Assembly: GCF_004349065.1 (NCBI RefSeq)
Contig: NZ_SMKZ01000064.1
Span: 1 to 36,158, forward strand
DNA from: Jiangella asiatica
GTDB lineage: Bacteria; Actinomycetota; Actinomycetes; Jiangellales; Jiangellaceae
Length of the DNA stretch: 36,158 bases
Reading direction: 5' to 3'
Shown here: positions 3,393 to 20,522 of the stretch, in pieces
Layout: every line of letters starts with the position of its first letter
How positions within the stretch are numbered: the stretch's first letter is position 1
Translations under genes and position numbers: made by a program
Notes under the pieces: model-generated
Told to the model about the DNA's origin: nothing
Seen by the model: the letters and a program-made list of their open reading frames with translations, nothing else
The model's database searches: none

Positions 3393-3401
3393 GGAGGGCC
3401 G

Positions 3402-3524
3402 ATGTCCACGACCAACGCACCCCTGCGCCAGCGTAAGCTCCAGAGCCTCGACCGACTGCTGGTGTGGCTCCCTCACATCACCTACCCGATCGCGTTCGTG
3501 ATCTTCGCGGTGTCGACACGATGA
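3402..3524 (+). CDS. 40-residue membrane ORF at the prophage edge
   Basis: A short reading frame that begins 39 bp inside the prophage. It has a perfect AGGAGG Shine-Dalgarno at 3392-3397, five bases from its ATG, which argues that it is translated. The N-terminal half is basic (PLRQRKLQSLDR), the C-terminal half hydrophobic (LPHITYPIAFVIFAVS), consistent with one membrane segment. Its stop overlaps the ATG of the matrixin gene (ATGA at 3521-3524), so the two are translationally coupled. It could be a leader that couples translation, a small partner of the protease, or a holin-like peptide; the sequence does not decide. A weak TACGTT (3385-3390) just upstream could serve as a -10. Confidence 0.6.
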   Translation: MSTTNAPLRQRKLQSLDRLLVWLPHITYPIAFVIFAVSTR

Positions 3525-4072: not shown

Positions 4073-4073
4073 C

Positions 4074-5069: not shown

Positions 5070-5107
5070 TGCGCGTGACCTCCTGATATGTACTGGGCGT
5101 GTCTCCG

Positions 5108-6723: not shown

Positions 6724-7853
6724 GACAGCCCGATCTCGATGCTGGTCTGGTCCTTCGTGGTCGCCGTCAGCGGCTCACCGGCAGTGAGCGGGATGGTGAC
6801 CGTCTGCAGCGTGTGGATGTAGTCGTGGTCCCGCGTGAGCACGCGGACCGGGTCGAAGGGCTCCAGGGCCGGGTTGGGCACCGCGGCGAGGTCGAGCGAG
6901 AACGGCAGCCCGAGGTTGTCGCGCAGCATCTTGGCGGCGGCGGCCTGCGCCTGCTGGGTGGTGGTGAGGAACTGCGAGGAGTAGAACCGCGGCACCTTCC
7001 CGAAGGTCAGACCGTACTGGTTCACACCATGCCAGTACGTGGGCGACGCCGGGTCGTCGTCGACGGCCAGCGCCCGGACGGGGACTGTCTGGTCCGCGCC
7101 TTCACCGGTGGCTACGACGCCGTTGTAGACGCCCTCGCGGGTGAGCTCCCGGGACATCTCCACCAGGACGCCGTTGCGGCCGGCGTTGACCTCGAACACC
7201 GGCTCCGCGGGGTCGGGCCGGTCCTTGACGACGAAGATCCCCCGGTAGTCGACGTAGAAGTCCTTGGCCATCGCGTCGGCCAGGTCGCGCAGGAAGGCGT
7301 ACCGGTCCTCCTCGGCGACCATGTTGCGGTTGAACACCACCGAGGTCATGTCGAAGTCGGCGTCGATGACCGCCGACGGGTACACGTCGAGGATCAGCTG
7401 CTCGAACGCCTCCTGCAGGGTGGTGCCGAGCGCGAACTGCACGGGCGCGACCAGGCGCCCGTCCACGATCGCGGCCATCCGGTCCTTGGCGGTCACCTCG
7501 ACCTCACCGAGCGGTGCTGCATCCTGGGCCGGCGACTCGACACGGAAGTAGCCGAGGCTCACCCATTCCACGTGACGGTCGCCGAACTCGATGCCGCGCC
7601 GGACGAACAGCTCCTGCCCGTACGGCGCGAGCACGTCGGTGTGGTCGTTGGGCCACAGTGCCGGCTCGGTGGTCAGGTCGAGGCTGGCGCGGACGTCGGC
7701 GGTGCCGTCGGACACGACGTTGCCGCCCAGGATCTTGATCTGTGTGCCGGTGGGGTTGACGCCGGTCTGGTGGCCGGGCACGGCGATCACCTCGGCGCGC
7801 ATCTTGTGCGAGTCGCGCACCGCGTCGAGGAACTGCTGGCTAACCGGCCTCAT
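6720..7853 (-). CDS. Minor tail protein, tail hub-like
   Basis: 377 residues. The opening (MRPVSQQFLDAVRDSHK) and the following strand-rich domain are typical of the DUF5047-type minor tail proteins of Streptomyces and related phages, which form the hub below the distal tail ring. A second domain (GTTLQEAFEQLILDVYP ... FLRDLADAMAKDFYVDYRG) has the helix and strand pattern of gp27-like hubs. The C-terminal region (TTTQQAQAAAAKMLRDNLG, then NPALEPFDPVRV) matches the usual end of this family. The start at 7853 overlaps the previous stop as ATGA. It most likely connects the distal tail ring to the spike protein encoded next. Confidence 0.8.
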   Translation of the reverse strand: MRPVSQQFLDAVRDSHKMRAEVIAVPGHQTGVNPTGTQIKILGGNVVSDGTADVRASLDLTTEPALWPNDHTDVLAPYGQELFVRRGIEFGDRHVEWVSLGYFRVESPAQDAAPLGEVEVTAKDRMAAIVDGRLVAPVQFALGTTLQEAFEQLILDVYPSAVIDADFDMTSVVFNRNMVAEEDRYAFLRDLADAMAKDFYVDYRGIFVVKDRPDPAEPVFEVNAGRNGVLVEMSRELTREGVYNGVVATGEGADQTVPVRALAVDDDPASPTYWHGVNQYGLTFGKVPRFYSSQFLTTTQQAQAAAAKMLRDNLGLPFSLDLAAVPNPALEPFDPVRVLTRDHDYIHTLQTVTIPLTAGEPLTATTKDQTSIEIGLS

Positions 7854-9328
7854 GGGACGATCACGTCCGTCGGGTCGCCGATGCGGTCCATGAGCTGCGC
7901 CCACGTGGCGTTGGCGGCGATGACGTCGCGCCAGGTGGCGTAGGCGTTGAGGACGCCCTGCCAGGTGACGGTGGACCCGACGATGGACGGGTCGGGCGCG
8001 GCGACCTCGGTAAGCGGCAGGTCGAAGTAGCGCCGCATCCCCCGGGTGGACCGCCGGCCCTCGGTGGTGTCGCCGATCACCACGTACATGGTGTCCACGC
8101 CGCAGGTGGCTGGCGCATGCAGGAACATCGGGTCGCCGGAGGACAGGATCACGTCAAAGTCGCGGGCGTCACCGAGGTTGTCGGTCATGATCGTGATGGT
8201 CTGCTGCCGCGACATCCGCAGGTCGGTCACGGCGACCGGGTAGCTGCGGCCGACGACGGGGAACACGCCGTTACGGGAGGCACGCTCGACCTCGGAGAAG
8301 TCGGTCAGCGCCACCTTGCGGTTCAGGAACGGCCGGGTGAGCGACTTCAACCACAGGCCGTCCAGGGCCACCGTGATCGAGGCGGTGAGCACTACGTCCG
8401 TGACCGAGCCGACCGCGACGGTGAAGCCGCGAGCGTTGAACAGGCCGTCGGTGTCGCCGGCTTCGAGGTCGAACGCGAATGCCTGCTGGCCACTCTGGCC
8501 AGCTGAGGCGAGGTGCCGCGTGTAGACCGCGCCGAGCATGTACCCGTCGGTGCTCCCGCTCGTGACGATGGGCGTCGCTGCGTCGGCCGACTTCGTGTAC
8601 CCGGCCTGGTCCAGGAAGTCGCTGTTTCCGGTGGCCGGAGTCGGTGCCTGCACCTGCCCGGTCGGCATGCGGAGCTCGAAGTCATGCGGGCCGGTGGGGT
8701 CCACCGACGGCGTCTCGACCGGGTTGAGCGTCGGGAGGAGGCCGGAGAAGGCTGAGGCGGCTACCGGCGCCAGGTCTTCGCGGCCGCCGCTGATCGCGGC
8801 CACGGCAACGACGCATGCGCCGTCGGTGGACTTGCGGAAGATGTAGAACGGGGGCAACGTGTCGCCCTGCACCTTCCACCAGAGCTTGCAGAAGCCGCCG
8901 GAAATCAACGGGTGCCAGGTGTCACCACCGCCGAAGTCGCTTGGGAGCGTCATGTCGGCGGCGCTTCCGCCCTGCTGCATCTGGAGGGCGACGATCACGT
9001 CCCCCGGCTGGACTCCGGCCGGGGGTGTCACAGACTGGTTGTCGAACCCGTCGTCGGTGGCTGTGTCGACGGCGATGGAGCGCAGGTCCGCGGTCGGGGC
9101 ATCGGCCGGTGGCCGCACCCGGTAGAAGTTCTCGACCGAGTCGGCGAACTCGTAGTCGTCCAGCTTGAACGCGCCGTTGACGACCGGCACGGCCGTGCCG
9201 CCGCGGACCGTGGTCCACCGGATCTGGTCGGTCGACCGCTCCACTATTGCGATCCCAGCCGGCAGGTCGGTGGCCTCGATCCGAACCCGGGACAGGTCGT
9301 CGAGGTAAGTCAGGGTGAGGCTGCTCAT
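7850..9328 (-). CDS. Minor tail protein, distal tail-type with inserted beta domain
   Basis: 492 residues, directly after the tape measure, where the distal tail protein is expected. Residues 1-70 form an immunoglobulin or fibronectin-like strand set ending in FYRVRP. Residues about 310-492 (ITVALDGLWLKSLTRPFLNR onward) form the rest of what in related phages is usually one continuous protein. Between them sits an extra domain of about 230 residues with the pattern PAGVQPGDVIVALQM ... WHPL ... KLWWKV ... GACVVAVAAISGG. It is Gly, Ala and Trp rich, like adhesive beta-sandwiches on virion surfaces. Start and stop both overlap the neighbouring genes by ATGA. The insertion may contact the cell envelope or polysaccharide. 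Confidence 0.78.
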   Translation of the reverse strand: MSSLTLTYLDDLSRVRIEATDLPAGIAIVERSTDQIRWTTVRGGTAVPVVNGAFKLDDYEFADSVENFYRVRPPADAPTADLRSIAVDTATDDGFDNQSVTPPAGVQPGDVIVALQMQQGGSAADMTLPSDFGGGDTWHPLISGGFCKLWWKVQGDTLPPFYIFRKSTDGACVVAVAAISGGREDLAPVAASAFSGLLPTLNPVETPSVDPTGPHDFELRMPTGQVQAPTPATGNSDFLDQAGYTKSADAATPIVTSGSTDGYMLGAVYTRHLASAGQSGQQAFAFDLEAGDTDGLFNARGFTVAVGSVTDVVLTASITVALDGLWLKSLTRPFLNRKVALTDFSEVERASRNGVFPVVGRSYPVAVTDLRMSRQQTITIMTDNLGDARDFDVILSSGDPMFLHAPATCGVDTMYVVIGDTTEGRRSTRGMRRYFDLPLTEVAAPDPSIVGSTVTWQGVLNAYATWRDVIAANATWAQLMDRIGDPTDVIVP

Positions 9329-10476
9329 GCGGTCGCCACCCTCGGTGCGCCGGAGGTGATCGCCCGCTTGATCGCCCTGCCGTTCTTCTTGATCTCGACC
9401 TGGGCGATGCCGGCGATGGCCTCCTTGGAGAGCATCACGTTCACGGTGATCTCGCCGCCGCCCTGGCCGGGCGTCAGGACCCGCTCGCCGCGGCGCAACA
9501 GCGCCAGCCCCTCGGAGCGGCCGTCGCGGGGCATGAACACGCCGCCGGAGTGCAGCGTGGGGATGTTGGGCGTGTTGAAGGTGAACCGGGGCACGGTGAT
9601 GGTTGGCCCGAACTGCCCGAGCGGGTCGTACGAGCCGCCGCCAATGGTGAACGACAGCCGGTTCCAGCCTCGGATGATCCCGTTGATCGCGCTGCGGAAG
9701 GCGTTGCCCAGCCCGTTGAACGCCCCGGACACGGCCCGCGAGATGCGCCCGGGCATCCCGGTGAAGAACCCGACGATGGCGTCAACCCGGCCGCCTACCC
9801 AGCTGGCCGCGCCACCGACCGCATCACGAACGGTCCGCATCGCCGTGGCGACGCCGTTGCCGACGGCGCGGCCAGCGGCCAGCACGGCGCCGAACGCTGC
9901 CTGGACGATGCGACGGAACGTCTCCGAGCGCTGATAGGCGAGCACCACGGCGGCCACCAGGGCCGCCAGGACGGTGATGACGATGCCGATGGGGTTGGCC
10001 CGCAGCACAGCGTTGAGCGCGCGCTGCACGACCGTGTAGGCGGTCGTCGCGGCGGTGGCGGCCCTCGTGGTGACGGTGTGCGCGACGGTAGCAGTGGTCG
10101 CCCTCACGGTCGCTACGGCGTTCGAGATGAACCCGGTAGCGGCGGCCTTCACGCTGGGGATGAGGAAGTTCGCGAACCCGGACGCGAGGTCACCGACGCC
10201 CATACCGAGGGTGAACAGGCCGTTGAACAGGTCACCCTTGGCGATCATCGATACGCCACTCATCGAGTCCTGGACACCTGTCAGGGTGTCGCGGAACCCC
10301 ATGGCTCGGGTGTCGACGGAGTCGGCGGCCTCGCCGGCGCGGTCGAAGCTGGCGCCGGCATCGCGGCTCGCGCTCGACACGCGGTCCAGGCCGCGACTGG
10401 CTCCGTCGGTGGCGTTCTCCAGGCCACGCGCGTCACCGGTGAACTTGATCTTTACGGTACGCTCGCCGGCCATCAT
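9325..10476 (-). CDS. Tail tape measure protein, very short
   Basis: 383 residues. The start is the first of two tandem ATGs, overlapping the previous stop and preceded by GAGGTGG. The N-terminus (RTVKIKFTGDARGLENATD) is the usual tape-measure start with an amphipathic coiled-coil-like region. The middle contains hydrophobic helices (FNGLFTLGMGVGDLASGFANFL and the stretch around GIVITVLAALVAAVVLAY), as in other tape measures that insert into membranes. The C-terminus has LHSGGVFMPRDGRSEGLALLRRGERVLTP, a signature shared by many siphoviral tape measures. Because tape length sets tail length at roughly 1.5 angstrom per residue, the tail should be only about 55-60 nm. It has no lytic transglycosylase or peptidase domain. 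Confidence 0.9.
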   Translation of the reverse strand: MMAGERTVKIKFTGDARGLENATDGASRGLDRVSSASRDAGASFDRAGEAADSVDTRAMGFRDTLTGVQDSMSGVSMIAKGDLFNGLFTLGMGVGDLASGFANFLIPSVKAAATGFISNAVATVRATTATVAHTVTTRAATAATTAYTVVQRALNAVLRANPIGIVITVLAALVAAVVLAYQRSETFRRIVQAAFGAVLAAGRAVGNGVATAMRTVRDAVGGAASWVGGRVDAIVGFFTGMPGRISRAVSGAFNGLGNAFRSAINGIIRGWNRLSFTIGGGSYDPLGQFGPTITVPRFTFNTPNIPTLHSGGVFMPRDGRSEGLALLRRGERVLTPGQGGGEITVNVMLSKEAIAGIAQVEIKKNGRAIKRAITSGAPRVATA

Positions 10477-10922
10477 CCACCTCGCGTGAACTCGTCGATG
10501 ATCTCGTCGGCGGCCGCGTTCCACTCGCGGCTGATCAGCGCCTCCTCGGACTCGATGGTCTTGAAGAACCAGTACGAGCCGCGACCCAGGTGCGGCCGGA
10601 ACTGCCGGTACCGGCGCGAGCCGAACTCCGAGCCGAACAGCAGCTTGAACGCGGGCGCCCGGTTGCGGCCCAGGCGCTTCGTCCCGCCGGCCTCGACGAC
10701 GGGTACACGGTCGCGCCGCGCCTTCACCGTGGTGGCGACGAGACGGGCCTGGCGCCCCTCGGCGCGGCCGGACTGGGTGGCGCGGTCGGCGAGCAGCTGC
10801 GCCAGCCGCTGGGCGCGGTCGCGCAGCTGGTCGTTGGCGTCCTTGGGCAGGTCCCGGAAGGCGTCGAGGGTCTCGTGGACGCCGTCGACCCGGACGGTCA
10901 TCGTCAGCGACGTCCTAGCCAC
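10473..10922 (-). CDS. HK97 gp10-like tail-completion or connector protein
   Basis: 149 residues. The pattern VRVDGVHETLDAFRDLPKDANDQLRDRAQRLAQLLADRA, an N-terminal strand followed by a long helix, and a C-terminal Arg/Trp-rich domain with LGRGSYWFFKTIE, fits the HK97 gp10-like family that joins head and tail. Such genes usually lie before the major tail protein; here the gene lies after the tail chaperone and before the tape measure, an unusual order. The GTG start at 10922 is supported by AGGAGGGGGA ending about 6 bases upstream and overlaps the chaperone stop; a later ATG at codon 8 is less well placed. Confidence 0.72.
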   Translation of the reverse strand: MARTSLTMTVRVDGVHETLDAFRDLPKDANDQLRDRAQRLAQLLADRATQSGRAEGRQARLVATTVKARRDRVPVVEAGGTKRLGRNRAPAFKLLFGSEFGSRRYRQFRPHLGRGSYWFFKTIESEEALISREWNAAADEIIDEFTRGG

Positions 10923-11327
10923 GAGAGTCCCCCTCCTTCTTCAACGCCTGTTCGATCAGCTCGGTCGCGGTGACGATCGCCGGCATCCCCTCCTCCACCC
11001 ACACCGACGGCGCGATGCCGGTGGCGACCGCCAGCTCGATCACTCGTCGGGCGAGTGATCCGGCTGGGTAGGGTCCGGCTCGTCGTCCTGGTCTTCCTCG
11101 AACGCCAGGTCGTGGGTGTCGGCGAACTCGTCGAGCGAGCCGGCGAACATGCCCTGCCGGCGGCACGCTGTGTGCGCCAGCTGGTACAGCTCGGTCATGG
11201 TGCCGCCGCCGCGCAGGTTCGAGAACGCGGCGCCGCGGTACGCCTTCTCCCACAGGAAGACGTCGCGGGAGGCGGCGGTGATGTCGAACGGCTCGCCGTG
11301 GTCCGGCTTGACGGTGAACTCGATCAC
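10915..11327 (-). CDS. Tail assembly chaperone, -1 frameshift product (GT type)
   Basis: The downstream frame (10915-11406) has no start of its own near the overlap but encodes a strongly conserved-looking segment, RRVIELAVATGIAPSVWVEEG ... TATELIEQALKKE, typical of the T part of siphoviral tail chaperones. It lies in the -1 frame relative to the upstream gene, as in lambda G/GT. A likely slip region is GGACCCT (11076-11070, minus strand), read GAC CCT in the zero frame; CCT to CCC re-pairing in the P or A site is possible, and both routes give the same residues (EPD-PYPAG). The fused product would have 137 residues and scaffold the tape measure. The exact slip site is inferred. Confidence 0.75.
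11040..11327 (-). CDS. Tail assembly chaperone, unshifted form (G type)
   Basis: 95 residues from a GTG that overlaps the stop of the major tail protein (GTGA). It starts with beta strands (IEFTVKPDHGEPFDITAAS), then helices (LWEKAYRGAAF, MTELYQLAHTACRRQG) and ends in an acidic tail (FEEDQDDEPD). Small size, position between major tail protein and tape measure, and the frameshift overlap identify it as the short form of the tail chaperone. It would be made in excess over the GT form. Confidence 0.8.
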   Translation of the reverse strand: MIEFTVKPDHGEPFDITAASRDVFLWEKAYRGAAFSNLRGGGTMTELYQLAHTACRRQGMFAGSLDEFADTHDLAFEEDQDDEPDPTQPDHSPDE

Positions 11328-11740
11328 GACTGAAGGTCCCTGCTGTAGATCGGCTTCCCCTCGATCGGGAAGGTGACGGTCTGGGTCTCGGTGGTGCGCA
11401 CGGCACCCCCGGCGCTGGGCGCCTTGACCTTGCATTCGCCGGTCCACTGGACGCCCCAGTCCGGGTCGTCCGGGTGGTTGACGAGCAGGAACGTCACCCA
11501 CTGCCCGTCGAGGGTGGTGAGGACGTCGCTGATGCCGCCCACGGTCCAGTCGGCGAAGTAGGTGAGCTCCAGCGCGTAGTCGGGGTCGGCCTCCTCGCGG
11601 AACTCCCCGTCCGGGCAGAACGTGTAGAACCGCTCGCCGTCCTCGGTGTTGTTGACCACCTGCCAGTTCGACACCTGGCACTGGTAGTCCACGCCGTCCA
11701 GCGTGAGCGTGATCTCCTTGAGCTTCTTGTGGTTCACCAT
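11324..11740 (-). CDS. Major tail protein
   Basis: 138 residues. A single beta-sandwich-like sequence (LTLDGVDYQCQVSNWQVVNN ... ALELTYFADWTVGGISDVL ... GQWVTFLLVNHPDD ... TTETQTVTFPIEG) matches the compact major tail proteins that stack as rings to form the tube. Position just before the chaperone pair and after the connector genes agrees. The ATG at 11740 has an AGGAAGGACC-type ribosome site upstream. The next gene starts inside its stop codon. Confidence 0.88.
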   Translation of the reverse strand: MVNHKKLKEITLTLDGVDYQCQVSNWQVVNNTEDGERFYTFCPDGEFREEADPDYALELTYFADWTVGGISDVLTTLDGQWVTFLLVNHPDDPDWGVQWTGECKVKAPSAGGAVRTTETQTVTFPIEGKPIYSRDLQS

Positions 11741-11753
11741 GTCCGGTCCTTCC

Positions 11754-12110
11754 TCACAGGTCCGCCTCGACGGTCAGTTCGTACGCGGGCAGATCGGCGT
11801 TGCCGACCTGGTAGGTGCCGGGCAACGCGATGGTGACCACGGCGAAGTCGGTGCCCTCGTCGATGGCGGCCGCCGCAACCGGCACGAGATCCCACAGGTT
11901 CTCGATGCTGCGGTCGTCGAACCGCTGCGTGAGGTAGACCAGGAACGTCGCTGCCGTCGGCTCGGTGCAGCCGGTCTCCCACGTCAGCCGCGGCGGCATG
12001 ATGACGGCGGCCGGCGGGTCCAGCGATGCGCCCGGGTCTCGCGTCACCCGCAGGTTCGGCACGGCGGCCAACGCCGCCTCGATGGCCTCGGCGGCCTCGC
12101 GGACGTTCAT
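11754..12110 (-). CDS. Tail terminator or connector protein
   Basis: 118 residues. Helix (MNVREAAEAIEAALAAV) followed by strands with PPAAVIMPPRLTWE and FLVYLTQRFDDRSIENLWDLVP gives the alpha-beta pattern of tail terminator proteins that cap the tail tube at the head. The C-terminal VVTIALPGTYQVGNADLPAYELTVEA fits as well. The ATG overlaps the previous stop (ATGA). It lies between the head-tail adaptor and the major tail protein, the expected place. Confidence 0.72.
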   Translation of the reverse strand: MNVREAAEAIEAALAAVPNLRVTRDPGASLDPPAAVIMPPRLTWETGCTEPTAATFLVYLTQRFDDRSIENLWDLVPVAAAAIDEGTDFAVVTIALPGTYQVGNADLPAYELTVEADL

Positions 12111-12460
12111 CCGACCACCGGTCTCGCGTGGCGGCCGATGCGCAGCAGACGGTCGATGTCGGGGTCGACGGACGGCACGCGCCCTGACCCGGCCTCGGCC
12201 ATCATCACCAGGCCGTCGGGCGACCGGTTGCGCGCGTGCCACCGGCCGGCCAGCCTGATCGTGCCCAGGATCAGGCTGGCGTCACCGGCCGGGTCGGGCT
12301 TCGTCGAGGTCGAGCCGCCGCCGAAGTTGTAGTCACGCGCGCGCACCCGCTCGACGAAGAACACCGAGGCGTCGAGGACACGGGTGAGCCGCTCGTCGTC
12401 GCGGTCGTCGGTGATCTTCAGATCGTCCTTCAGCTCGTCCAGCGTCGGCGGCCACGCCAT
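12107..12460 (-). CDS. Head-tail adaptor (connector) protein
   Basis: 117 residues starting MAWPPTLDELKDDLKI, a common opening of actinophage head-to-tail adaptors of the HK97 gp6 type, which form a ring under the portal. Helices follow (DDERLTRVLDASVFFVERVRAR) and a region with GTIRLAGRWHARNRSPDGLV. A strong Shine-Dalgarno (GGAGGTGA) sits upstream of the ATG at 12460. It is the second gene after the capsid. Confidence 0.78.
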   Translation of the reverse strand: MAWPPTLDELKDDLKITDDRDDERLTRVLDASVFFVERVRARDYNFGGGSTSTKPDPAGDASLILGTIRLAGRWHARNRSPDGLVMMAEAGSGRVPSVDPDIDRLLRIGRHARPVVG

Positions 12461-12474
12461 GCCCAGTCACCTCC

Positions 12475-12579
12475 CTACTTCTTCTCGATCTCCCAGCCGC
12501 GCTCGGTGAGCACGTGCCCACCGGCGCGGACCGGCTCGGCCTTCGGCTTCGCCTTGGCCTTCGGCTTGCGCTCGGCCAT
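12475..12579 (-). CDS. 34-residue basic Lys/Ala/Pro protein
   Basis: A tiny gene whose ATG shares a base with the TGA of the capsid fusion (TGATG), so translation is coupled. The sequence begins MAERKPKAKAKPKAEPVRAGG and ends GWEIEKK. The first half is a lysine/alanine/proline stretch, likely disordered and DNA or capsid binding; the second half contains a short strand. Small basic genes right after the capsid are common in actinophages, and some encode capsid decoration or connector peptides. No function is proven. Confidence 0.6.
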   Translation of the reverse strand: MAERKPKAKAKPKAEPVRAGGHVLTERGWEIEKK

Positions 12580-15500
12580 CAGGAGCCCGCGGTGTGCCGG
12601 ACGGCGAACAGGCCGACCGGGCGCAGCAGCCGCGTCGCGAAGTAGCCGAACAGCGCCAGGTCGATCTGGGCGGGGCCGTTGCGCTCCTCGTAGCGGAAGG
12701 TGAGCAGAGCCGACTCCCACGCCCACACGTCCGAGCGGTTGTAGCCGAGGACGTCGGCGTCGCCGGCGCCATTGCCGAGCATCGACCAGGTGGGCACGTT
12801 GGCCAGCCCGTCGACGGACCAGCCCTGCTGGACGGCGTTGCCGAGGCCGGCGGTGTTGGTGGCGCCGATGCTGGGCAGCAGCGGCCGACCGTCGGCACCG
12901 ACAGCGCCCGCGTACTCCGAGGTGGCCTCCTGGCTCAGGTGGGCCAGGGTGGGCGCGGCGAACCGGCGGAACGGGTAGACCGCGAGGGCCTGCCGCACCG
13001 TGGTCAGCAGCTCCAGGCCAGCGCCGGCGCTGGTGAACACCTGGGCACCGGCTCCGGAGAAGCCGTTGGTGATGGTGCCGCCCTGGCCGTTCGGCCCATT
13101 CAGCTCGGCGTACACCTTGGCCTCGCACTGCTGGCTGTACGACTCGCGCATGGCCTGCAGGGCGATCGCGTCGATCTGCGGGTTGGACGAGTCGACCAGC
13201 TCGCGGGTGACCTCCATCAGGCCCGAGATGGCGCCCGGGGTGACCGTCACCGGCTCGAACGTGATGCTGCCCGGCGTCGGGTTGGTGCCCTCCGTGTGGT
13301 CGCTGGTGGCGTTGGTGGCAGACACGAACCGCGGCACGGTGAACGGCGTGGCGTCGGTGAGGGTGCCGCGCGACACGGTGTCGACGAGCGGGCGGCCCTG
13401 CGGCAGCTGGCCCACGTACAGGTCGGGCCGGTAGCCGGGCGGGATGATCTGCGGGTCGCTCGTGGTGGACTCCACGAACTTGAGCTCGGCGGCCCGCTGG
13501 GCGAAGTCGGCGGACTGCTCGGAGTACTTGCGCAGCCGCGCCACGGCGTCGTCGGCGGCAGGACCGTGCTCCTGCTTCGCCTTCCAGGCGTCGCGGACGA
13601 ACGACGGGCCGGAGCCGTCGAGCCGGTAGACGGGCGCCTCCCGGACGACCTGCACGCCGGGCGTCGGGCGGCCGGCGCGGACGACCTCGCGGATGTTCTG
13701 CGGGTCCTCGGGGTCCACGCCGATGCGGGCGAAGCCGGCCGTGACGGCCTTCTCCACGGCCTCGGCGATGCCGGCGGTGAACGCGGTCAGGTCCGGCGCC
13801 TCGGCCGTCTCCTTGACCTTGGTGTCGGACATGTCGGGTTCCTCTCGTTCCGCGGTCACGGTTGTGACTCGCGCGTCTTCGAAGGCGGGCATCGCCGTGA
13901 TGGTGATCTCCCGCAGGGCCGCGTTGCGGACCAGGCGCACAGCGCGGTCGGTCGGGTCGGCCTGCCAACCGTCCTCGTCGGTGAAGTCGACGCCGACGCT
14001 CAGGCCATCCAGCACGCCATCCTCAGCGAGCGAGAGCACGCGGTCGCCCTCCTCACCGCGGGCGACACTGAACGTCGCCTCCAGGCCGGCGTCGGTGGCC
14101 TTCAGCGCGGTGGCACGGCCGACGGCCTGGCGCGCGTCGTGGTCACGCAGCAGCTTCACCCGAGCCGGGTCCGTCCACGACAGCGAGCCCTTGGCGAACC
14201 GCCAGCCGTATCCCCCGGAGCGCGCGGCGACGCCCCACGGCACGGCGAGGCCGGTGATGGTGCGCTTCTCGGCGTTGACCCGGAACGCGGCGGCAACCTC
14301 GGGCGTGTCGAACTGGACGGCCGGGCCGGCGCTGAACGTACGCTCGGCGGGTCGCTCGGCTTCGGTCTCGGTCACGGCCTCCTCCTGGGGCTGGGTCTGC
14401 GGCTGGGCAGCGGGACGGATGCGGGCGAGCTCGGCCGGCGTGAGGGCCGGCTTGTCTTCGAGCTCGCGGATCTCCTCGACGGTGAAGGCGCCGACGCGCA
14501 GACCGACCTCGTAGGTCTGCATCCGCGTGAGGGTGTCGCCGCGCAGGAACGCGGCCCAGTCGACGTGGGCGGTGTAGCCGCGCGGCAGCGTGTCGTTCAT
14601 CGACAGCCGGTCCTCGACGGCGGACACGTACGGCGCCAGCGTGAAGTCGATCAAGTCCTGGCGGCGCTGCTCGCTGTTCTGGTACGTCCGGGTCGTGACG
14701 GACACGCCGAGGTCGGTGGGGTCGATGCCGGTGGCGCGGGCGATCTCCAGCACGGCGTGCTGGCGGGCGTCGGCCATCTGCAGCTGCTCGGGGTTGTATC
14801 CGAGCTGGTGCAGCTGCAGGCCGCCGACGTAGCCCCAGGCGTTGCGCTGCCGGGACGTCTGCCAGTCGTCGATGATCTCCTGGACCTCGTCCTTGTCCGG
14901 GAGGTCCGCACCCTCGGGCGCGGAGAAGTAGCCGAGCGGCGGCACGCCGAAGGCGAACAGCGCGGCGGCCTTGTCCAACATGAGAGCGGACCGGATGGCG
15001 CGGGCGCCGTGGATCAGCAGCGGCGGGTTCGGCGAGTCGAACCGGATCACCTGGTCGTCGGGGACGTAGACGCCGTCGATGTAGACGCGGCCGTGCTCCG
15101 GCCAGCGCGGGTTCTCCGGGTCGTAGTCCGACGGCAGCAGTGGCCCGTCGGGCTGGACGGTGACGGCGTCGAGCGGGACGTGTTGGGCGCGGGTCGGGAA
15201 GCCGTGCCAGCCGAGCTGGGTGACGCGCCAGAACGAGACCGACTCGAACAGCAGGTCGGCGTAGGTCACGGCCAGCGTGACGCTGTTGGGCACGTCCGGG
15301 TCGATCTGGCCGCCGAGCAGGTAGGTGGCGTCGGGGACGACGCGGCGGTCTGGTCCGTGCACGCGGTGCGGCAGCGACCCCGGCGTGCTGATCAGGTTCC
15401 GCGCCCGCAGCACGGCCGGCACCTGCAGAGCCTCGCTGCGGGAGATGCGCGGTGCGATGCCGGCAGGCGCCATCGCCTCCAGCAGCTCGGGCGGAATGGT

Positions 15501-15590
15501 GATGCTGGAGAACGTCTGGCGCGGCGCCGGTGCGACGGCCTGAACCCCGGCCGCTCGGCGCGTCAGTCGCAGTGCATCCCGCCATCCCAC
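12579..15590 (-). CDS. Portal-prohead protease-major capsid fusion (1003 residues)
   Basis: One uninterrupted frame encodes three head functions that are normally separate genes. Residues 1-405 are an HK97-type portal (SRSEALQVPAVLRARNLIS near the start, QLHQLGYNPEQLQMADARQ and GIDPTDLGV in the middle). Residues about 406-586 are an S78-type prohead protease: His in KLLRDHDARQAVGR and Ser in DGVLDGLSVGVDF are the expected catalytic residues. Residues 587-1003 are an HK97-fold capsid: a helical delta domain, then RGTLTDATPFTVPRF and ISGLMEVTRELVDSS. The start is the GTG at 15590, the only start codon in frame before the portal motifs; no Shine-Dalgarno is visible there. A strong internal site precedes the protease and a moderate one precedes the capsid, so separate products may be made too. 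Confidence 0.9.
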   Translation of the reverse strand: MGWRDALRLTRRAAGVQAVAPAPRQTFSSITIPPELLEAMAPAGIAPRISRSEALQVPAVLRARNLISTPGSLPHRVHGPDRRVVPDATYLLGGQIDPDVPNSVTLAVTYADLLFESVSFWRVTQLGWHGFPTRAQHVPLDAVTVQPDGPLLPSDYDPENPRWPEHGRVYIDGVYVPDDQVIRFDSPNPPLLIHGARAIRSALMLDKAAALFAFGVPPLGYFSAPEGADLPDKDEVQEIIDDWQTSRQRNAWGYVGGLQLHQLGYNPEQLQMADARQHAVLEIARATGIDPTDLGVSVTTRTYQNSEQRRQDLIDFTLAPYVSAVEDRLSMNDTLPRGYTAHVDWAAFLRGDTLTRMQTYEVGLRVGAFTVEEIRELEDKPALTPAELARIRPAAQPQTQPQEEAVTETEAERPAERTFSAGPAVQFDTPEVAAAFRVNAEKRTITGLAVPWGVAARSGGYGWRFAKGSLSWTDPARVKLLRDHDARQAVGRATALKATDAGLEATFSVARGEEGDRVLSLAEDGVLDGLSVGVDFTDEDGWQADPTDRAVRLVRNAALREITITAMPAFEDARVTTVTAEREEPDMSDTKVKETAEAPDLTAFTAGIAEAVEKAVTAGFARIGVDPEDPQNIREVVRAGRPTPGVQVVREAPVYRLDGSGPSFVRDAWKAKQEHGPAADDAVARLRKYSEQSADFAQRAAELKFVESTTSDPQIIPPGYRPDLYVGQLPQGRPLVDTVSRGTLTDATPFTVPRFVSATNATSDHTEGTNPTPGSITFEPVTVTPGAISGLMEVTRELVDSSNPQIDAIALQAMRESYSQQCEAKVYAELNGPNGQGGTITNGFSGAGAQVFTSAGAGLELLTTVRQALAVYPFRRFAAPTLAHLSQEATSEYAGAVGADGRPLLPSIGATNTAGLGNAVQQGWSVDGLANVPTWSMLGNGAGDADVLGYNRSDVWAWESALLTFRYEERNGPAQIDLALFGYFATRLLRPVGLFAVRHTAGS
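13830..13847 (-). promoter_or_regulatory. Internal ribosome site and ATG before the capsid domain
   Basis: Within the fusion frame, GAGAGGAA lies 7-8 bases before an in-frame ATG at 13832 that opens MSDTKVKETAEAP, exactly where a free HK97-type capsid with its delta domain would begin. Starting here gives a 417-residue protein, a normal capsid precursor length. Confidence 0.6.
14373..14387 (-). promoter_or_regulatory. Internal ribosome site and GTG before the protease domain
   Basis: AGGAGGAGG followed by CC and an in-frame GTG at 14375. The core AGGAGG at 14386-14381 is 5 bases from the start codon, among the best ribosome sites in the window. It falls in the Gln/Pro-rich linker between portal and protease (PQTQPQEEA-V-TETE). 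Starting here would make a protease with or without the capsid. Confidence 0.55.
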
Positions 15591-15648
15591 GTACCAGATG
15601 GTACGCCAAGATTCTTGACGTCGAGATTCTTGATGCGACGATGATGGT
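15591..15648. promoter_or_regulatory. Divergent control region between portal fusion and terminase
   Basis: A 58-bp gap separates two divergent phage operons. It holds the perfect dyad GTACCA-GA-TGGTAC (15591-15604, plus strand) directly before the portal GTG, and two direct copies of AGATTCTTGA 15 bp apart (15609-15618 and 15624-15633). TTGACG (15615-15620) resembles a -35 for the terminase direction; no clear -10 follows at 17-18 bp. On the minus strand TACCAT lies 7 bases before the portal GTG, the placement of a -10 for a leaderless transcript. A regulator binding the repeats could switch both operons. Confidence 0.5.
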
Positions 15649-17079
15649 GTGTCGACCGTCCTGGGGTGCGAGCAGCCGCGGCTGTTCACGCTGCCGCTGC
15701 GCGAGCTGACACCGGAGACGTCGCTGGGCTTCGAGGCCACCGAGTGGATCGAGAAGCACCTGTTCCCGCTGCTGCCGTGGCAGCGCTGGTGGCTGGTGCA
15801 CGCGCTGGAGCTGCGGCCGGACGGGACGCTGCGGTTCCGCACGCTGATCACGCTGATCGCCCGGCAGAACGGCAAGAGCCGGCTCATGCAGGCGCTCACG
15901 TTGTGGATGATCTTCACCGGCCGCGCCAAGTTGGCGTTGGGTGCCGCGCAGTCGCTCGACGTCGCCCGGGAGGCGTGGACCGGCGCCGTCGACCTCGCCC
16001 AGGACGACGACGACCTGCGCATGGACATTGCCCGCGTGCGGATGGCGAACGGCGAGCAGGAGCTGCGCCTGGCCAGCGGCGCCCGCTACAAGATCACGGC
16101 GGCGACGAGGTCAGCCGGCCGCGGCCTGTCCGTCGACCTGCTGAACCTCGACGAGCTGCGCGAGCACCGCGACTGGCTCGCCTGGGGTGCGCTCTCGAAG
16201 ACGACGACGGCCCGGCCGCAGGCGATCACCGCGGCGTTCTCCAATGCCGGCGACGACGACAGCGTGGTGCTGAACAGCCTCCGTGACGGCGCGCTGGCGG
16301 CGATCGAGGACCCGGAGACGAGGGTGTTCCTCGCCGAGTGGTCCGCACCGGACGGCTGCGAGCTCGACGACGTGGAGGCCATCCGCCAGGCGAACCCGGG
16401 CCTCGGGCACATCATCGACATCGACAGCATCCACGCTGCCCGGCTCGTCGACCCGCCGGCCGTCTACCGCACCGAGACGCTGTGTCAGCGCGTCGCCGCG
16501 ATGGACGGAGCGATCGATCTTGCCGCCTGGACCGACAGCGGCGACATCGGCACCCTCGACGGCGTCCGCGACCGCGTGTGCCTCGGCCTCGACGTGAGCC
16601 CGGACCTGCAGCACGTCACGCTCGTGGCTGCCGCCCTCCTCGACGACGGCCGGGTGCGCGCCGAGGTGGTCGCCGCGTGGTCCAGCACCGAGGACGCACG
16701 CTACGAGCTGGATGAGCTGCTGGACCGCATCAAGCCGCGCGCCGTCGGATGGCTGCCAGGTGGGCCGGCCGCCGCTCTCGCCGCAGACCTGCGGGGCCGG
16801 CGAGGTCTCACCGAGATCAAGTCGGCCGACGTCGGCGCCATCTGCCAGGGCCTGGCCGAATTCGTGTCCGCCAGGCGTGTTCTGCACTCGAATGACCCGT
16901 TGCTGACTGCGCAGGTGCAGGGCGCATCGAAGCTGTACAGCGGCGACGGATGGCGATTCACGCGCAAGGGAGTCGGCCACGTCGACGGCGTCTACGCGCT
17001 GAGCGCCGCCGTGCACCTCGCGCGCACCCTCCCAGCGCCACGCGAACGCCCACGCCTGATCCTGCCGCGCGCAAGCTGA
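15649..17079 (+). CDS. terL: Terminase large subunit
   Basis: 476 residues; packages phage DNA into the prohead. The N-terminal ATPase has LIARQNGKSRL (about residues 70-80), the variant P-loop of many actinophage terminases, preceded by the LLPWQRWWLVHALE adenine-binding-type motif. SVDLLNLDELREHRD (about residue 165) is the Walker B region with its acidic residue. The nuclease half contains VCLGLDVSPDLQHVTLVAA, the first metal-binding Asp region, and the C-terminal DGVYALSAAVHLARTL. Length is normal. It is the only late gene on the plus strand. The GTG start follows the divergent control region without a Shine-Dalgarno; a leaderless transcript is possible. It converges on the HNH gene, with 93 bp between the stops. 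Confidence 0.93.
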   Translation: MSTVLGCEQPRLFTLPLRELTPETSLGFEATEWIEKHLFPLLPWQRWWLVHALELRPDGTLRFRTLITLIARQNGKSRLMQALTLWMIFTGRAKLALGAAQSLDVAREAWTGAVDLAQDDDDLRMDIARVRMANGEQELRLASGARYKITAATRSAGRGLSVDLLNLDELREHRDWLAWGALSKTTTARPQAITAAFSNAGDDDSVVLNSLRDGALAAIEDPETRVFLAEWSAPDGCELDDVEAIRQANPGLGHIIDIDSIHAARLVDPPAVYRTETLCQRVAAMDGAIDLAAWTDSGDIGTLDGVRDRVCLGLDVSPDLQHVTLVAAALLDDGRVRAEVVAAWSSTEDARYELDELLDRIKPRAVGWLPGGPAAALAADLRGRRGLTEIKSADVGAICQGLAEFVSARRVLHSNDPLLTAQVQGASKLYSGDGWRFTRKGVGHVDGVYALSAAVHLARTLPAPRERPRLILPRAS

Positions 17080-17172
17080 TCAAGAGAGAGAGATTCATAG
17101 GGGGCATGGATGTCCGCGGCTGGTGGTGCGGGAAAAATGGGACCTGCTGTCACCTGCTGGGTCTGTGACTAC

Positions 17173-17436
17173 TCACCACTGTGTTCTTGGTCTGGGTGGT
17201 GGGTCCTTCGCGAGGCGTGTCGGATCGCCGACTCGCAGGTTGCAGTGCTTGCAGCTGGCGACGAGGTGAGCTGGGTCGTCGCCTGTGACGCTGCGCCCGA
17301 GTGTGTGGTGTACCTCGGTGGCGATGGTGGTGCATCCGGGTAGCTGCAGTCGGCAGCGTCGTCCGTCGCGGGCGAGCACCCGTGCACGGACGACGCGCCA
17401 TGCACGGGTGCTGCCCTTGGCCCACGCTTTGCTCAC
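17173..17436 (-). CDS. HNH endonuclease
   Basis: 87 residues. The core is RARVLARDGRRCRLQLPGC, then EVHHTLGRS and a closing ASCKHCNLRVGD: a zinc-binding Cys set around a beta-beta-alpha metal finger with the HH catalytic pair and the final Asn. HNH proteins encoded beside terminases in HK97-like phages stimulate terminase cutting at the cos site, and this gene lies next to terL, though on the other strand. The GTG start at 17436 overlaps the stop of the preceding gene (GTGA). The longer frame upstream is Arg/His-rich and looks like a shadow of the 117-residue gene. Confidence 0.85.
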   Translation of the reverse strand: MSKAWAKGSTRAWRVVRARVLARDGRRCRLQLPGCTTIATEVHHTLGRSVTGDDPAHLVASCKHCNLRVGDPTRLAKDPPPRPRTQW

Positions 17437-17786
17437 GTCGGGATGGTGGAGGCGAACAGGTACCCGGTAGAGCCGAGCACACCGACGGTGGCGATGAGTA
17501 CCTGGCTGATGTGGCCGGCGTCGGATGGGCGTGGTGTGCGCTGGCCCTCGCTGATCTTGCGGCGGTGGCGCCGGCAGCGTCGGCAGGCGCAGGCTCGTGC
17601 GCGTTCGGCGAGTAGCTGTTCTCCGAGTGCGCGGATGGTGTCCCGCTGTTCGGCGACTCGTTCGGTGGCGTCGGTGAGCAGCTGTTCGACGGCGGGCGGC
17701 ATGTCGCGCCACCAGGGCGAGTCGGCGCTGTTGGCCAGGTGCTGCTCCAGCTGTGCTCGTGCGGTCTCTCGTGCGTCGTCGCTCAT
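17433..17786 (-). CDS. Hypothetical phage protein with Cys cluster
   Basis: 117 residues. The N-terminal two thirds are helical and acidic-basic mixed (ARAQLEQHLANSADSPWWRDMPPAVEQLLTD, then a coiled-coil-like ERVAEQRDTIRALGEQLLAERA). A cluster ACACRRCRRH could bind a metal. The C-terminal 25 residues are hydrophobic (HISQVLIATVGVLGSTGYLFAS). Start and stop overlap the neighbouring genes by ATGA and GTGA, so it is co-translated between the winged-helix protein and the HNH nuclease. A small terminase role is conceivable from its position but no helix-turn-helix is visible. I do not recognise the family. Confidence 0.6.
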   Translation of the reverse strand: MSDDARETARAQLEQHLANSADSPWWRDMPPAVEQLLTDATERVAEQRDTIRALGEQLLAERARACACRRCRRHRRKISEGQRTPRPSDAGHISQVLIATVGVLGSTGYLFASTIPT

Positions 17787-18496
17787 GCTGCTGCTCTCCT
17801 CTCGCTGATGATCTTGTTCACGATGATCTGCGGAGTGTGGACCCCGTTGGCGAGCATGCCGTCGACCTCCGAGCGCTCGATATCGCCGACCGGCTCGTGG
17901 CCTCTCATCGCCAGCGATTCGTCGATGCAGCCGGTGACGTCGTCGTGGCTGTCGTCGATGCAGTGCCAGCCGTCGTCGCGTTCTTCGACGTGATCACTCC
18001 ATCGCCAGGGCCGCGACTCGTCGCGGTCCCGACGAGGAGGAGGCGACGAAGGAGCCGACGACGAGGCGGAACGCTCTTCTTCGTCTCGGTCCTTCGTCTC
18101 GGTCCTTCGTATAGCGCCTGGTTCTCCGACGCCTGGTTCTCCGACGCCGGTTTTCCAGTCCTCGGCGCCACCTGCAAGGATGCCGGATTCGCCCTGGTCG
18201 GAGTGCTGCGGCGTCTCATACACGAACGTGACCGTGATCCATCGCCCTCGCTCGCCCCGCTGCTTGCGCCGCACGACGTAGCCGGCGTCCTCCAGCTCCC
18301 GCAGCGCTGCACGGATCGCATCGCGCCCCTCGCGACCCTCACGGGTCAGCTGGGTGGAGTTGGTGCGCCAGTCCGCCGGTCGGCTGAGGATGGCGGCCAG
18401 CAGGCCGCGAGCACGGAACGACAGGCGCTCGTCGCGCAGCAGCGCGTTGTCCAGGATGGTGAAGTGCGCCGTGTGACCCGGAGCCCTGACAATCAT
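17783..18496 (-). CDS. Winged-helix phage replication or regulatory protein
   Basis: 237 residues. The N-terminal 90 residues are a winged helix common in actinophage early regions (HFTILDNALLRDERLSFRARG, LSRPADWRTNSTQLTREGREGRDAIRAALRELEDAGYVVRR), close to replisome-organiser and DnaD-type N-termini. A disordered linker (SASSSAPSSPPPRRDRDE) leads to a C-terminal acidic and helical part with CIDESLAMRGHEPVG and PQIIVNKIISERR. A role in replication initiation is the best guess. Two tandem repeats lie in the linker coding region: 13 bp twice (18081-18106) and 15 bp twice (18115-18144, giving GVGEP repeated). The start at 18496 overlaps the upstream stop (ATGA); the longer frame is a shadow. Confidence 0.75.
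   Translation of the reverse strand: MIVRAPGHTAHFTILDNALLRDERLSFRARGLLAAILSRPADWRTNSTQLTREGREGRDAIRAALRELEDAGYVVRRKQRGERGRWITVTFVYETPQHSDQGESGILAGGAEDWKTGVGEPGVGEPGAIRRTETKDRDEEERSASSSAPSSPPPRRDRDESRPWRWSDHVEERDDGWHCIDDSHDDVTGCIDESLAMRGHEPVGDIERSEVDGMLANGVHTPQIIVNKIISERRAAA
18081..18144. repeat. Two tandem duplications inside the winged-helix gene
   Basis: TCGTCTCGGTCCT is duplicated exactly (18081-18093 and 18094-18106), followed by an exact 15-bp duplication of CGCCTGGTTCTCCGA (18115-18129 and 18130-18144). The 15-bp unit keeps the frame. The 13-bp unit does not: loss of one copy would move translation into a frame that stays open to a stop at 17905. Confidence 0.85.
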
Positions 18497-18756
18497 GCCG
18501 CCACCGCCTTGGCGCGGTCGTTGATGCGGTGGCACAGGATGCAGCGCGGCTCGTAGTCGTCCGGCCACGGCGAGTACCTCAACCCTCGCGGGTTGATCAG
18601 CTCGTCGGGCGAGTCGCCTCTGTACGACCACTCCAGCGCTCGTGCGCCGCAGTCGACGCAGCGGTGCTCGGCGGCGTCACCGCGGGCCGCTGCGACTCGT
18701 TGGTGAGCGCTGGAGTACGCCGGGGTCGTCGTTCGGTAGCCGCCGCGCGCCATCAT
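18493..18756 (-). CDS. Small zinc-binding HNH-like protein
   Basis: 87 residues with two CxxC pairs, HRCVDCGARALEWSY and RCILCHRINDRA, spaced about 38 residues apart. The intervening segment (GDSPDELINPRGLRYSPWPDDYEP) is typical of actinophage early proteins that resemble HNH nucleases but lack an obvious HH pair. Zinc binding is likely; DNA cutting is not assured. The ATG at 18756 overlaps the upstream stop (ATGATG) and has GAGG in front. Confidence 0.7.
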   Translation of the reverse strand: MMARGGYRTTTPAYSSAHQRVAAARGDAAEHRCVDCGARALEWSYRGDSPDELINPRGLRYSPWPDDYEPRCILCHRINDRAKAVAA

Positions 18757-18962
18757 GCACCTCGCAGCAGGTCGGCGAGACGGTCACGCTGCTCGGGAGT
18801 CAGCGGAGGGAATGAATCGACGAGATTCTTGATGTATTCCTCGGCATTCAGGAAATGCAATTCCCGTCGCGCTTCCTGTGCCTTTTCGTGGTGCCCCCAT
18901 CGCGTATTCTGTGCGATTTGGCCACCGAGCGACTTACGTCGCTGCTCGATCTGACTTGCCAT
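18753..18962 (-). CDS. First early gene, small helical protein
   Basis: 69 residues: MASQIEQRRKSLGGQIAQN, then TRWGHHEKAQEARRELHFLNAEEYIKNLVDSFPPLTPEQRDRLADLLRG. It is helical and basic at the N-terminus. It is the promoter-proximal gene of the early operon, with AAAGGTGAG upstream of its ATG. The opening of GGQIAQNTRWGH is reminiscent of short actinobacterial conserved hypotheticals found in integrative elements. No excisionase-type winged helix is evident. Recognised only as a conserved-looking small phage protein. Confidence 0.65.
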   Translation of the reverse strand: MASQIEQRRKSLGGQIAQNTRWGHHEKAQEARRELHFLNAEEYIKNLVDSFPPLTPEQRDRLADLLRGA

Positions 18963-19007
18963 TGAGATCTCACCTTTCGATAAGGCGATAACCTCTCTCG
19001 ACCATTA

Positions 19008-19036
19008 ACTCTAGCTGTCGTACAGTCGTTCGGCAA
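19008..19036 (-). promoter_or_regulatory. Early promoter of the prophage
   Basis: On the minus strand TTGCCG (19036-19031) and TAGAGT (19013-19008) are separated by exactly 17 bp, a good vegetative promoter, with about 45 bp to the first early gene. The spacer holds CTGT-CGT-ACAG (19016-19026), a short dyad that could be an operator. The surrounding 200 bp between integrase and early genes holds no ORF and is less GC-rich than its surroundings. Confidence 0.65.
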
Positions 19037-19122
19037 GCTGGATCATGCAGGTGATATAGGGACTCCTGGTCCCTCCGTGGCCCTATTTGAAAGAATGCCC
19101 TGGTCGCCGCTTGATCCAACAA

Positions 19123-19156
19123 GAATGGCCCCCCGGAATTCACCGAAGGGCCATTC
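19123..19156 (-). terminator. Terminator after the integrase gene
   Basis: GAATGGCCC and GGGCCATTC are perfect 9-bp inverted repeats with a 16-base loop. The hairpin starts 10 bp after the integrase stop, and on the minus strand it is followed by TTGTT. Confidence 0.75.
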
Positions 19157-19166
19157 CTATGGCGAG

Positions 19167-20522
19167 CTAGCTTCGCGGTTGGATGAGCACGCTTTCGGGC
19201 CTGAATGTCCGAATTCCTCTACCCGGCGACAACAGCTTCACCGTCATCAGCTCGGCGATGACGGCTCGCCGCTGCTGGAGGTCCAGGCCCTCCCACACCG
19301 CCCGCGCCTGCTCGGCGCCCGCGAACGCCAGCAGGGCGCTCTCCCGCGCCGCTGCTGCCAGCTGGCCGTCCAGCTGCTCCAGGCGCCCGTCGAGGCGTTC
19401 AGTGCCGACTCGCAGCTGTGAGGCCGTCAGCTCGCCGTCGGCGAACAGCACGGCCAGCTGGTCACGCCGCTGCCGCAGCGTCGCAGCCTCGGTATGCAGG
19501 GCACCGACGTCCGGGCGCTTCGCCGCGACCAGATCGGCGACGTCCGGGCGCCCCAGTCGCTCGCACACCACTGCAGTCACGAAGTCGTCGACCGGGCCGG
19601 CCGCGCGCACCACGTGGCTCTTGGAGGCGCACCGGTAGGTCCGGTTGCCGTGGTTGAGGCCGCCGGCCCGGATCAGGCCACCGCAGACGCCGCACGTCGC
19701 CAGACCCGTCAGAAGGTAGGTCCGCTCGGTCCCGGGCGACACCCGCCGCTCAGGGTCGCTGAGAATTCCCTGCACGAGCCGCCACAGCTCCTCGTCCACG
19801 ATCGCCGGCCACGCACCCTCCCCCACGACCTCACCGCGGTATGAGCGCAAGGCGGCGTAGCGCGGGTTCGCCAGGACCGTCCGGACGGCGCGAGGTGTCC
19901 ACGGGCGCCCCCACGTCGTCGTGTGGCCCTCCCAGGCACGGACGATCGACAGCACCGACCCGCCGGCGGCCACCTTCTCGAAGGCGCAGCGGACGAGCTC
20001 GGCCTCGACGGGTACCAGTTCCATGCCGTCGGAGCTGTAGCCGAACGCGCGCGGCCCCTGCGGCGGGCGTCCCTGCCGGGCACGCTGCGCATTCGCGAGC
20101 ACCTGCCGGCTCGACTTCCGCTCCACCTCACCACGGGCCACGGCGGTCAGGATACGGCCCACGAGGCGCCCGGAGTCGGTGGCGAGGTCAAGGTCTCCCT
20201 GGACGGTCACGACCGCGATGCCGGCGCGCTCGCACAGCACCACCAGGCGCTCCATGTCGGCCACGCCGCGGGTGAGCCGGTCCAGGGACCACGCCATGAT
20301 GACGTCGTACCGGCCGGCCTCGGCGTCGGCGAGGAGCTGCGTCCAGCGCGGCCGCGCGCCGTTCGTCGCGGAGACGCTGTTGTCGACGTACTCCTCGACG
20401 ACGGTCAGCCCGCGAGCCTGCGCGAGGCTGGTGCACGCGTCCCGCTGCCGATCGACGGCGGCGCCGTCACCGGTCCGGTCGAGCGACTGCCTCAGATAGA
20501 GCACTGCCCTCTTGCCATCCAT
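19167..20522 (-). CDS. int: Large serine integrase
   Basis: 451 residues; integrates and excises the prophage by breaking all four strands at a 2-bp core. The resolvase domain has the nucleophile Ser13 in YLRQS, then the conserved VDRQRDAC, MAWSLDRLTRG and AVARGEVERKS motifs. The recombinase domain follows (GPRAFGYSSDG, AVRTVLANPRYAA). A zinc ribbon with CGVCGG and YRCASKSH and a long coiled coil (about residues 340-410) complete the normal architecture. Its start is 33 bp from the attR core, so its own coding start lies beside the attP arm. The gene reads in the same direction as the interrupted host gene, whose truncated frame runs 56 bp into it, so host transcription may contribute to its expression in the lysogen. 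A terminator follows its stop. Confidence 0.95.
   Translation of the reverse strand: MDGKRAVLYLRQSLDRTGDGAAVDRQRDACTSLAQARGLTVVEEYVDNSVSATNGARPRWTQLLADAEAGRYDVIMAWSLDRLTRGVADMERLVVLCERAGIAVVTVQGDLDLATDSGRLVGRILTAVARGEVERKSSRQVLANAQRARQGRPPQGPRAFGYSSDGMELVPVEAELVRCAFEKVAAGGSVLSIVRAWEGHTTTWGRPWTPRAVRTVLANPRYAALRSYRGEVVGEGAWPAIVDEELWRLVQGILSDPERRVSPGTERTYLLTGLATCGVCGGLIRAGGLNHGNRTYRCASKSHVVRAAGPVDDFVTAVVCERLGRPDVADLVAAKRPDVGALHTEAATLRQRRDQLAVLFADGELTASQLRVGTERLDGRLEQLDGQLAAAARESALLAFAGAEQARAVWEGLDLQQRRAVIAELMTVKLLSPGRGIRTFRPESVLIQPRS

Follow-up and report, generated by a model that had tools for sequence, protein, structure and literature searches.

In the textbook account, a phage head is built from portal, protease and capsid proteins that separate genes supply in very unequal amounts. 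In the 36,158-nucleotide stretch of Jiangella asiatica DNA studied here (the window), all three are encoded by one gene. How could a single reading frame supply them in different amounts? The first-pass annotation, made from the sequence of the window alone, had described one open frame of 1003 codons in which portal, prohead protease and capsid are joined, and had proposed that self-cleavage or internal starts uncouple the products. Our ORF reading confirmed a single uninterrupted frame on the minus strand, from a GTG start at 15590 to a stop codon that ends at 12579 (Table 1). An upstream ATG at 16028 was dismissed as an unlikely start because it falls within the oppositely oriented terminase gene.

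Domain searches were carried out on a 1149-residue reading with 146 extra N-terminal residues; all numbering is given for the 1003-residue protein. The portal part matched PF04860 well above its cut-off (E 4e-30, 105.6 bits versus 39.1) and fell under the stricter cut-off of TIGR01537 (51.3 bits versus 112.05). A sequence profile search of the PDB returned three chains, all of them portals. The second part matched the S78 prohead protease family PF04586 (E 2.8e-14, 54 bits versus a cut-off of 21), with TIGR01543 slightly under its cut-off (56 versus 59). His484 and Ser531, which we take to be the predicted catalytic pair of the S78 protease, are unchanged throughout alignments of 26 and 64 rows. 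The capsid part scored just under the PF05065 cut-off (22.7 bits versus 24.2), and most of the relatives listed carry PF05065 as a precomputed match. The PHROGs family phrog_2263, "major head protein", spans both protease and capsid (E 1.9e-55). These matches and the invariant protease residues uphold the portal and protease parts of the first-pass annotation and make its HK97-type capsid part probable. The NCBIfam model for a protease/capsid fusion protein, NF045541, gave 27.6 bits, with 525 needed.

An AlphaFold2 model of the protein (mean pLDDT 75.6) has folded portal, protease and capsid parts, whose mutual placing is unreliable because the pTM is 0.43. Its low-confidence stretches, residues 395-420 and 568-605, coincide with the two seams. 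The helix at 602-622 could be a delta domain, judging from this model. Foldseek searches against viral models found portals, proteases and capsids either apart or as protease-capsid, among the 50 matches shown of 522 at E <= 0.001; HK97 capsid models were among the matches.

The gene lies in a small prophage, probably of siphovirus type. Comparison with the other genomes of the genus placed the end of the left flank at window position 3363 in all 11, and the start of the right flank at 20555 in 10 of the 11 and 8 bases earlier in the remaining one. In 10 of these genomes the two flank matches share 2 bases, and in the remaining one 10 bases; so short an overlap is consistent with the serine integrase encoded by the prophage. 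A replication-initiation-like gene and an HNH endonuclease are also present. The recurring order in relatives is HNH, terminase, fused gene, then connector and tail genes, and among 76 partly redundant loci the terminase is co-directional with the fused gene in 64 and divergent in 12, the window's phage included. IMG/VR contains the same prophage (L022), which does not represent independent sequencing.

Table 1. Positions of the fused head gene, its parts and candidate start signals, and of the surrounding prophage, in the window
Feature	Position	Strand	Details
Prophage	3364..20554		About 17.2 kb; edges from the empty site in 11/11 other genomes of the genus
Tape-measure-like protein	9325..10524	-	399 aa
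Major tail protein	11324..11740	-	phrog_4574, E 2.4e-10; downstream of the fused gene, same direction
Fused portal-protease-delta-capsid gene	12579..15590	-	1003 codons, GTG start, predicted 108.2 kDa
Delta-like helix and HK97-type capsid part	12582..13832	-	Residues 587-1003
Second inner start, ATG	13830..13832	-	Residue 587; candidate delta-capsid, 417 aa, 44.1 kDa
Shine-Dalgarno-like GAGAGGAA of second inner start	13839..13846	-	dG -6.0
Protease part	13833..14375	-	Residues 406-586; PF04586; invariant His484 and Ser531
First inner start, GTG	14373..14375	-	Residue 406; candidate protease-delta-capsid, 598 aa, 63.5 kDa
Shine-Dalgarno-like AGGAGGAGG of first inner start	14378..14386	-	dG -10.3
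Portal part	14376..15590	-	Residues 1-405; PF04860; PDB portal chains 3kdr, 9lbn, 8cez
Terminase large subunit	15649..17079	+	phrog_9, E 2e-69; divergent from the fused gene
Serine integrase of prophage	19167..20522	-	Domain and PHROGs matches

Full-length homologues, which the annotation had left to a database search, were found. A protein search gave 569 matches. Of the 120 that were listed, the window's protein among them, 115 have alignments spanning 95% or more of the query; the lengths of these 120 range from 942 to 1277 residues. Among the hosts named are Micromonospora, Amycolatopsis, Actinophytocola, Prauserella, Labedaea and Saccharomonospora. Loci were then taken from species genomes (20) and from IMG/VR, as the best 80 of 195 matches to the whole protein and the best 80 of 312 to the capsid only. 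The capsid-only scan was added because the whole-protein scan could favour fused genes. An additional capsid query from the Salinispora branch gave only 5 loci. Among 165 relative loci, which pool the whole-protein and capsid-only viral sets, were chosen by similarity to the fused query or its capsid, and are related to one another, 118 are fused, 24 are split at the first seam (portal/protease) and 9 at the second (protease/capsid); none has three separate frames. A further 12 are incomplete: 8 lack the upstream part yet have protease and capsid fused, and 4 are incomplete in other ways. The last 2 gave no match to the capsid. Clustering at 90% capsid identity gave 91 clusters. All three parts are present in 83 of these, of which 64 are fused, 14 split between portal and protease only, 4 between protease and capsid only, and 1 mixed. 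As far as these sequences go, the portal-protease-capsid fusion is a trait of the family, in which natural splits recur.

In a sample of the phylum, 9 of 396 genomes had any match (mostly with two candidates scored per genome), as did 4 of 22 genomes sampled from the host family; the window's own match was the sole full-length one, so that in these samples full-length homologues are rare around the host. None of 563 matching isolated-phage records covered 80% of the query, and the same search with two distant family members as queries found none among 195 and none among 264. Matches occurred in 29 plasmid records, none with coverage above 80%.

Each seam of the fused gene contains a candidate inner start behind a Shine-Dalgarno-like (SD) sequence. 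The layout is AGGAGGAGG-cc-GTG (14386-14373) at the first seam and GAGAGGAA-cccgac-ATG (13846-13830) at the second, and SD sites of comparable strength precede other genes of this prophage. The gene's own first GTG has no SD (dG -1.5). We scored in-frame ATG and GTG codons by the pairing energy of their upstream bases with the anti-Shine-Dalgarno tail in 66 fused representatives less than 90% identical to each other, the window's own included. With dG <= -6 and bins of 20 residues, two peaks were found, at residues 400-419 (46 of 66) and 580-599 (38 of 66); the next bins were 40-59 (18), 0-19 (14), 360-379 (13) and 960-979 (12). At a cut-off of -7, bin 400-424 retains 42 representatives and bin 575-599 retains 28, with 2 left in bin 325-349, where a conserved portal Met reaches 36 of 66 at the laxer cut-off of -4.5. 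At that laxer cut-off a second-seam start occurs in 64 of the 66 (ATG in 57 of these), the two exceptions being the Nocardioides loci L006 and L021. A first-seam start at dG <= -5.5 is missing in 14, including most of the Micromonosporaceae rows.

The two seams differ in how their signals compare with 100 synonymous shuffles. First-seam starts occur in 47 of 66 rows, with a shuffle mean of 25.6 and a maximum of 33. The SD count at the second seam lies within the shuffle range in the same 66 rows (38 versus a mean of 35.4 and a maximum of 44), since the SD there is dictated by the encoded amino acids. Other features mark this seam. Met587 is present in 80% of rows and its flanking residues in at most 36%, a comparison in which the aligner may favour matching Met. 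In 60 of 66 rows, with 26.7 expected, an ATG lies no more than 30 codons from where the protease ends, mostly 6-9 codons past that point. The SD occurs in differing codon phases (29/25/5), and third positions are A/T-rich at codons -8 to -3. The mRNA at the two starts is less folded than in synonymous shuffles, by 2.40 +- 0.44 and 2.68 +- 0.39 kcal/mol, whereas at two control Met codons the difference runs in the opposite direction. Both inner starts fall in the low-confidence linkers of the AlphaFold2 model. On this comparative evidence, inner starts have good support at both seams.

The relatives in which the gene is naturally divided point the same way. Portal is separated from protease-capsid by a stop or frame change in 14 clusters, and the capsid is out of frame with portal-protease in 5, one of which also has fused members; every break found sits at a seam. 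When ATG, GTG or TTG was allowed and the best candidate taken, the downstream part had a start at dG <= -5 in 18 of the 19 split clusters, several as 4-base ATGA overlaps. L187 lacks such a start, L098 has an insert of about 1.8 kb, and the start of L067 is TTG. Split second-seam starts sit 35-98 bases within the upstream frame, matching the position in the fused forms. Some of the single frame changes at the second seam could be assembly errors. A tree of 84 rows requires at least nine changes between fused and split forms, eight of which strongly supported branches make unavoidable, a count that gives no direction; in a midpoint-rooted tree of 72 rows the splits are nested within fused groups. 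Of the two means of uncoupling raised in the first-pass annotation, internal starts are thus supported at both seams, by the signals across the 66 representatives and by the splits.

The linkers also bear on whether the long chain itself is used. The first linker varies greatly in length, with 30 values among the 66 rows, and the frame is nevertheless kept at the first seam in 69 of 83 clusters and at the second in 78 of 83 (the mixed cluster counts as fused for the first seam and is placed in neither class for the second). Since the frame should otherwise drift, varying length with a kept frame makes it seem that both the long chain and the inner starts are retained, and suggests, on this comparison, a need for the long chain as well. 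A search of the portal/protease linker in the 66 rows found no conserved cleavage motif. Of the 66 first linkers, 32 contain triplets resembling A[AG]R, which prove nothing there because they are commoner in delta ends (47 of 66) and portal cores (63 of 66).

We compared several ways in which such a gene could work. The sequences examined show a fused frame, start signals at the seams, a signature resembling that of starts in use, and natural breaks at these seams. The reading that we consider probable is that three head genes have lost the stops between them and retained their ribosome-binding sites, so that nested starts would set the products. Ribosomes starting at the first codon would make a small amount of a portal-protease-delta-capsid polyprotein (108 kDa); those starting at the portal/protease seam would make protease-delta-capsid (63.5 kDa), and those at the protease/capsid seam delta-capsid (44 kDa), in the largest amount. 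The capsid end of the long chains would enter the prohead, carrying portal and protease along, and the protease would next cleave the linkers and the delta domain. A portal part ending just before the first inner start would be 44.8 kDa. Translation at the inner starts, the amounts made and the cleavage that frees the portal are what we infer. More tentatively, the full-length chain may act as a covalent initiator, its capsid end in the shell and its portal and protease loaded at one vertex, with amounts set by rare initiation at the first start and the protease freeing the portal, itself and delta; we think this possible rather than probable.

Were the 1003-residue chain instead the sole product, cut by the embedded protease into portal, protease, delta and capsid, the invariant His484 and Ser531 would fit, as would the frame retained despite changes in linker length and the lack of an SD-led second-seam start in two of the 66 fused relatives and in the isolated phage Emperor. 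Such a true polyprotein would yield portal and capsid in a 1:1 ratio, which to our knowledge no icosahedral head uses, and it leaves unexplained the start signals at the seams and the splits that depend on them. We regard it as unlikely. Quite unlikely, too, is a neutral fusion, in which protease and capsid come entirely from inner starts and the stop codons can be done without. The repeated changes between fused and split forms, and the starts that split forms still have, would agree with this, but an unconstrained frame should have lost register in roughly two thirds of cases, and most seams are in frame despite the wide variation in linkers (the sample being phylogenetically non-independent). 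Internal promoters, rather than internal ribosome starts, could boost capsid amounts, and the A/T-richer stretch ahead of the second seam might be read in that way; a ribosome start would still be required, and the conserved feature is an SD with a start codon, which makes this very improbable. Least credible of all is a lost stop, whether as an assembly or sequencing artefact, which the first-pass annotation had wished to exclude, or in a decayed prophage: although the genome is a draft of 134 contigs, the core residues are conserved and the same open frame is shared by the 118 fused loci, from many independent assemblies, and we reject such an accident on these grounds.

Nested starts of the kind that we favour have a precedent in phage lambda, where an in-frame internal start in C produces Nu3, so that protease and scaffold share their C-terminal part. 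The Jiangella gene resembles this arrangement in having an internal in-frame start with a ribosome-binding site, recognized here from sequence signals. As far as we know, the lambda frame contains no portal or capsid, and its protease is of another family.

The closest published genes are the protease-capsid and protease-scaffold-capsid fusions described for small actinophages, including Arthrobacter cluster AN, Microbacterium cluster EE, Rhodococcus RRH1 and others (PMC5513430, PMC7302621). Like the window's gene, these combine protease, scaffold or delta, and HK97 capsid in one gene, in genomes of 14-17.5 kb; unlike it, they have the portal as a separate gene, and protein identity is about 30%. 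We examined 11 protease-capsid fusion genes, ten of them from actinophages and one from Pseudomonas phage Hadban. The portal gene is immediately upstream of the fusion, with a 4-base overlap, in Maggie, Kels, Penoan, Majesty and Atraxa, and in 5 of the 11 lysins or small ORFs intervene between portal and protease. Nine of the 11 have a seam ATG (dG -5.7 to -10.3) located 10-19 codons past the protease end, except in Schiebs, where the distance is 65 codons. A seam start is lacking in Emperor, and SallySpecial has only GTG codons, in a Pro/Ala-rich run. Seam starts in single phages could be due to chance, because each gene has 1-7 starts at dG <= -5.5.

Two other kinds of fusion are known. The PAJU2 "capsid polyprotein" has protease and major capsid in one chain, for which self-cleavage was proposed (PMC8306868); as presented there, fusions of this type differ from the window's gene in having no portal and in their unrelated hosts. 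Portal-MuF fusions, reported for clusters AK, EA and EB (PMC5513430, PMC7302621), likewise join the portal to another head protein, the partner in those accounts being MuF and not protease and capsid. No portal-protease-capsid fusion was found in the open-access PubMed Central literature searched, which is weak evidence of absence. The protease-capsid fusion is already published, and the addition of the portal would be the new element of this family.

We have here a widespread phage group with portal, protease and capsid in one frame, in which nested starts seem to handle the amounts. If this is true, three nested starts in a single frame set the stoichiometry of the head. The group would offer a simple, testable system for one-frame stoichiometry and for the route by which portal and protease enter the prohead. 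It also suggests that small phages with a published protease-capsid "fusion" produce capsid on its own from an inner start as well, hidden by gene callers.

In 10 of the 11 other genomes of the genus, the flanks of the prophage join directly, overlapping by 2 bases, as would be expected for a serine integrase. The divergent arrangement of the terminase gene and the fused portal-protease-capsid gene occurs in 12 of the 76 loci. Because no Shine-Dalgarno sequence was found before the GTG start codon of the fused gene (position 15590), this start may be leaderless or regulated. Near the inverted repeat upstream of this codon, TCAAGAATC is present twice.

Features of the prophage and of the region upstream of the fused gene
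Feature	Position	Strand	Remark
Prophage ends	3362-3364 and 20554-20556		Flank comparison with other genomes of the genus
Terminase gene	15649-17079	+	Divergent from fused gene
Inverted repeat GTACCA-TC-TGGTAC	15591-15604		Directly 5' of GTG 15590

Pfam and PHROGs scans of late ORFs (3482-11740, minus strand; small ORFs covered in part) revealed neither a holin gene nor an endolysin gene, with the sole exception that the tape-measure ORF matches an "endolysin" family.

In several relatives split at the portal/protease junction (L041, L073, L080, and L100), a small extra domain (MPWH...KDADxSNEGCH...ALYANE) opens the protease part; the fused relatives do not have this domain. In another split relative, an insert of about 1.8 kb separates portal from protease (L098:2452-4300).

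The Gordonia phages Emperor and SallySpecial (L117 and L125) have protease-capsid fusions and no Shine-Dalgarno-led ATG at the protease/capsid junction. These fusions may be true cut polyproteins. Among the best 50 of 522 Foldseek matches, two long viral proteins (ranks 10 and 31) match the portal part alone; one is a 1201-aa "Phage portal protein, HK97" and the second is an 884-aa entry. These two proteins may be other portal fusions.
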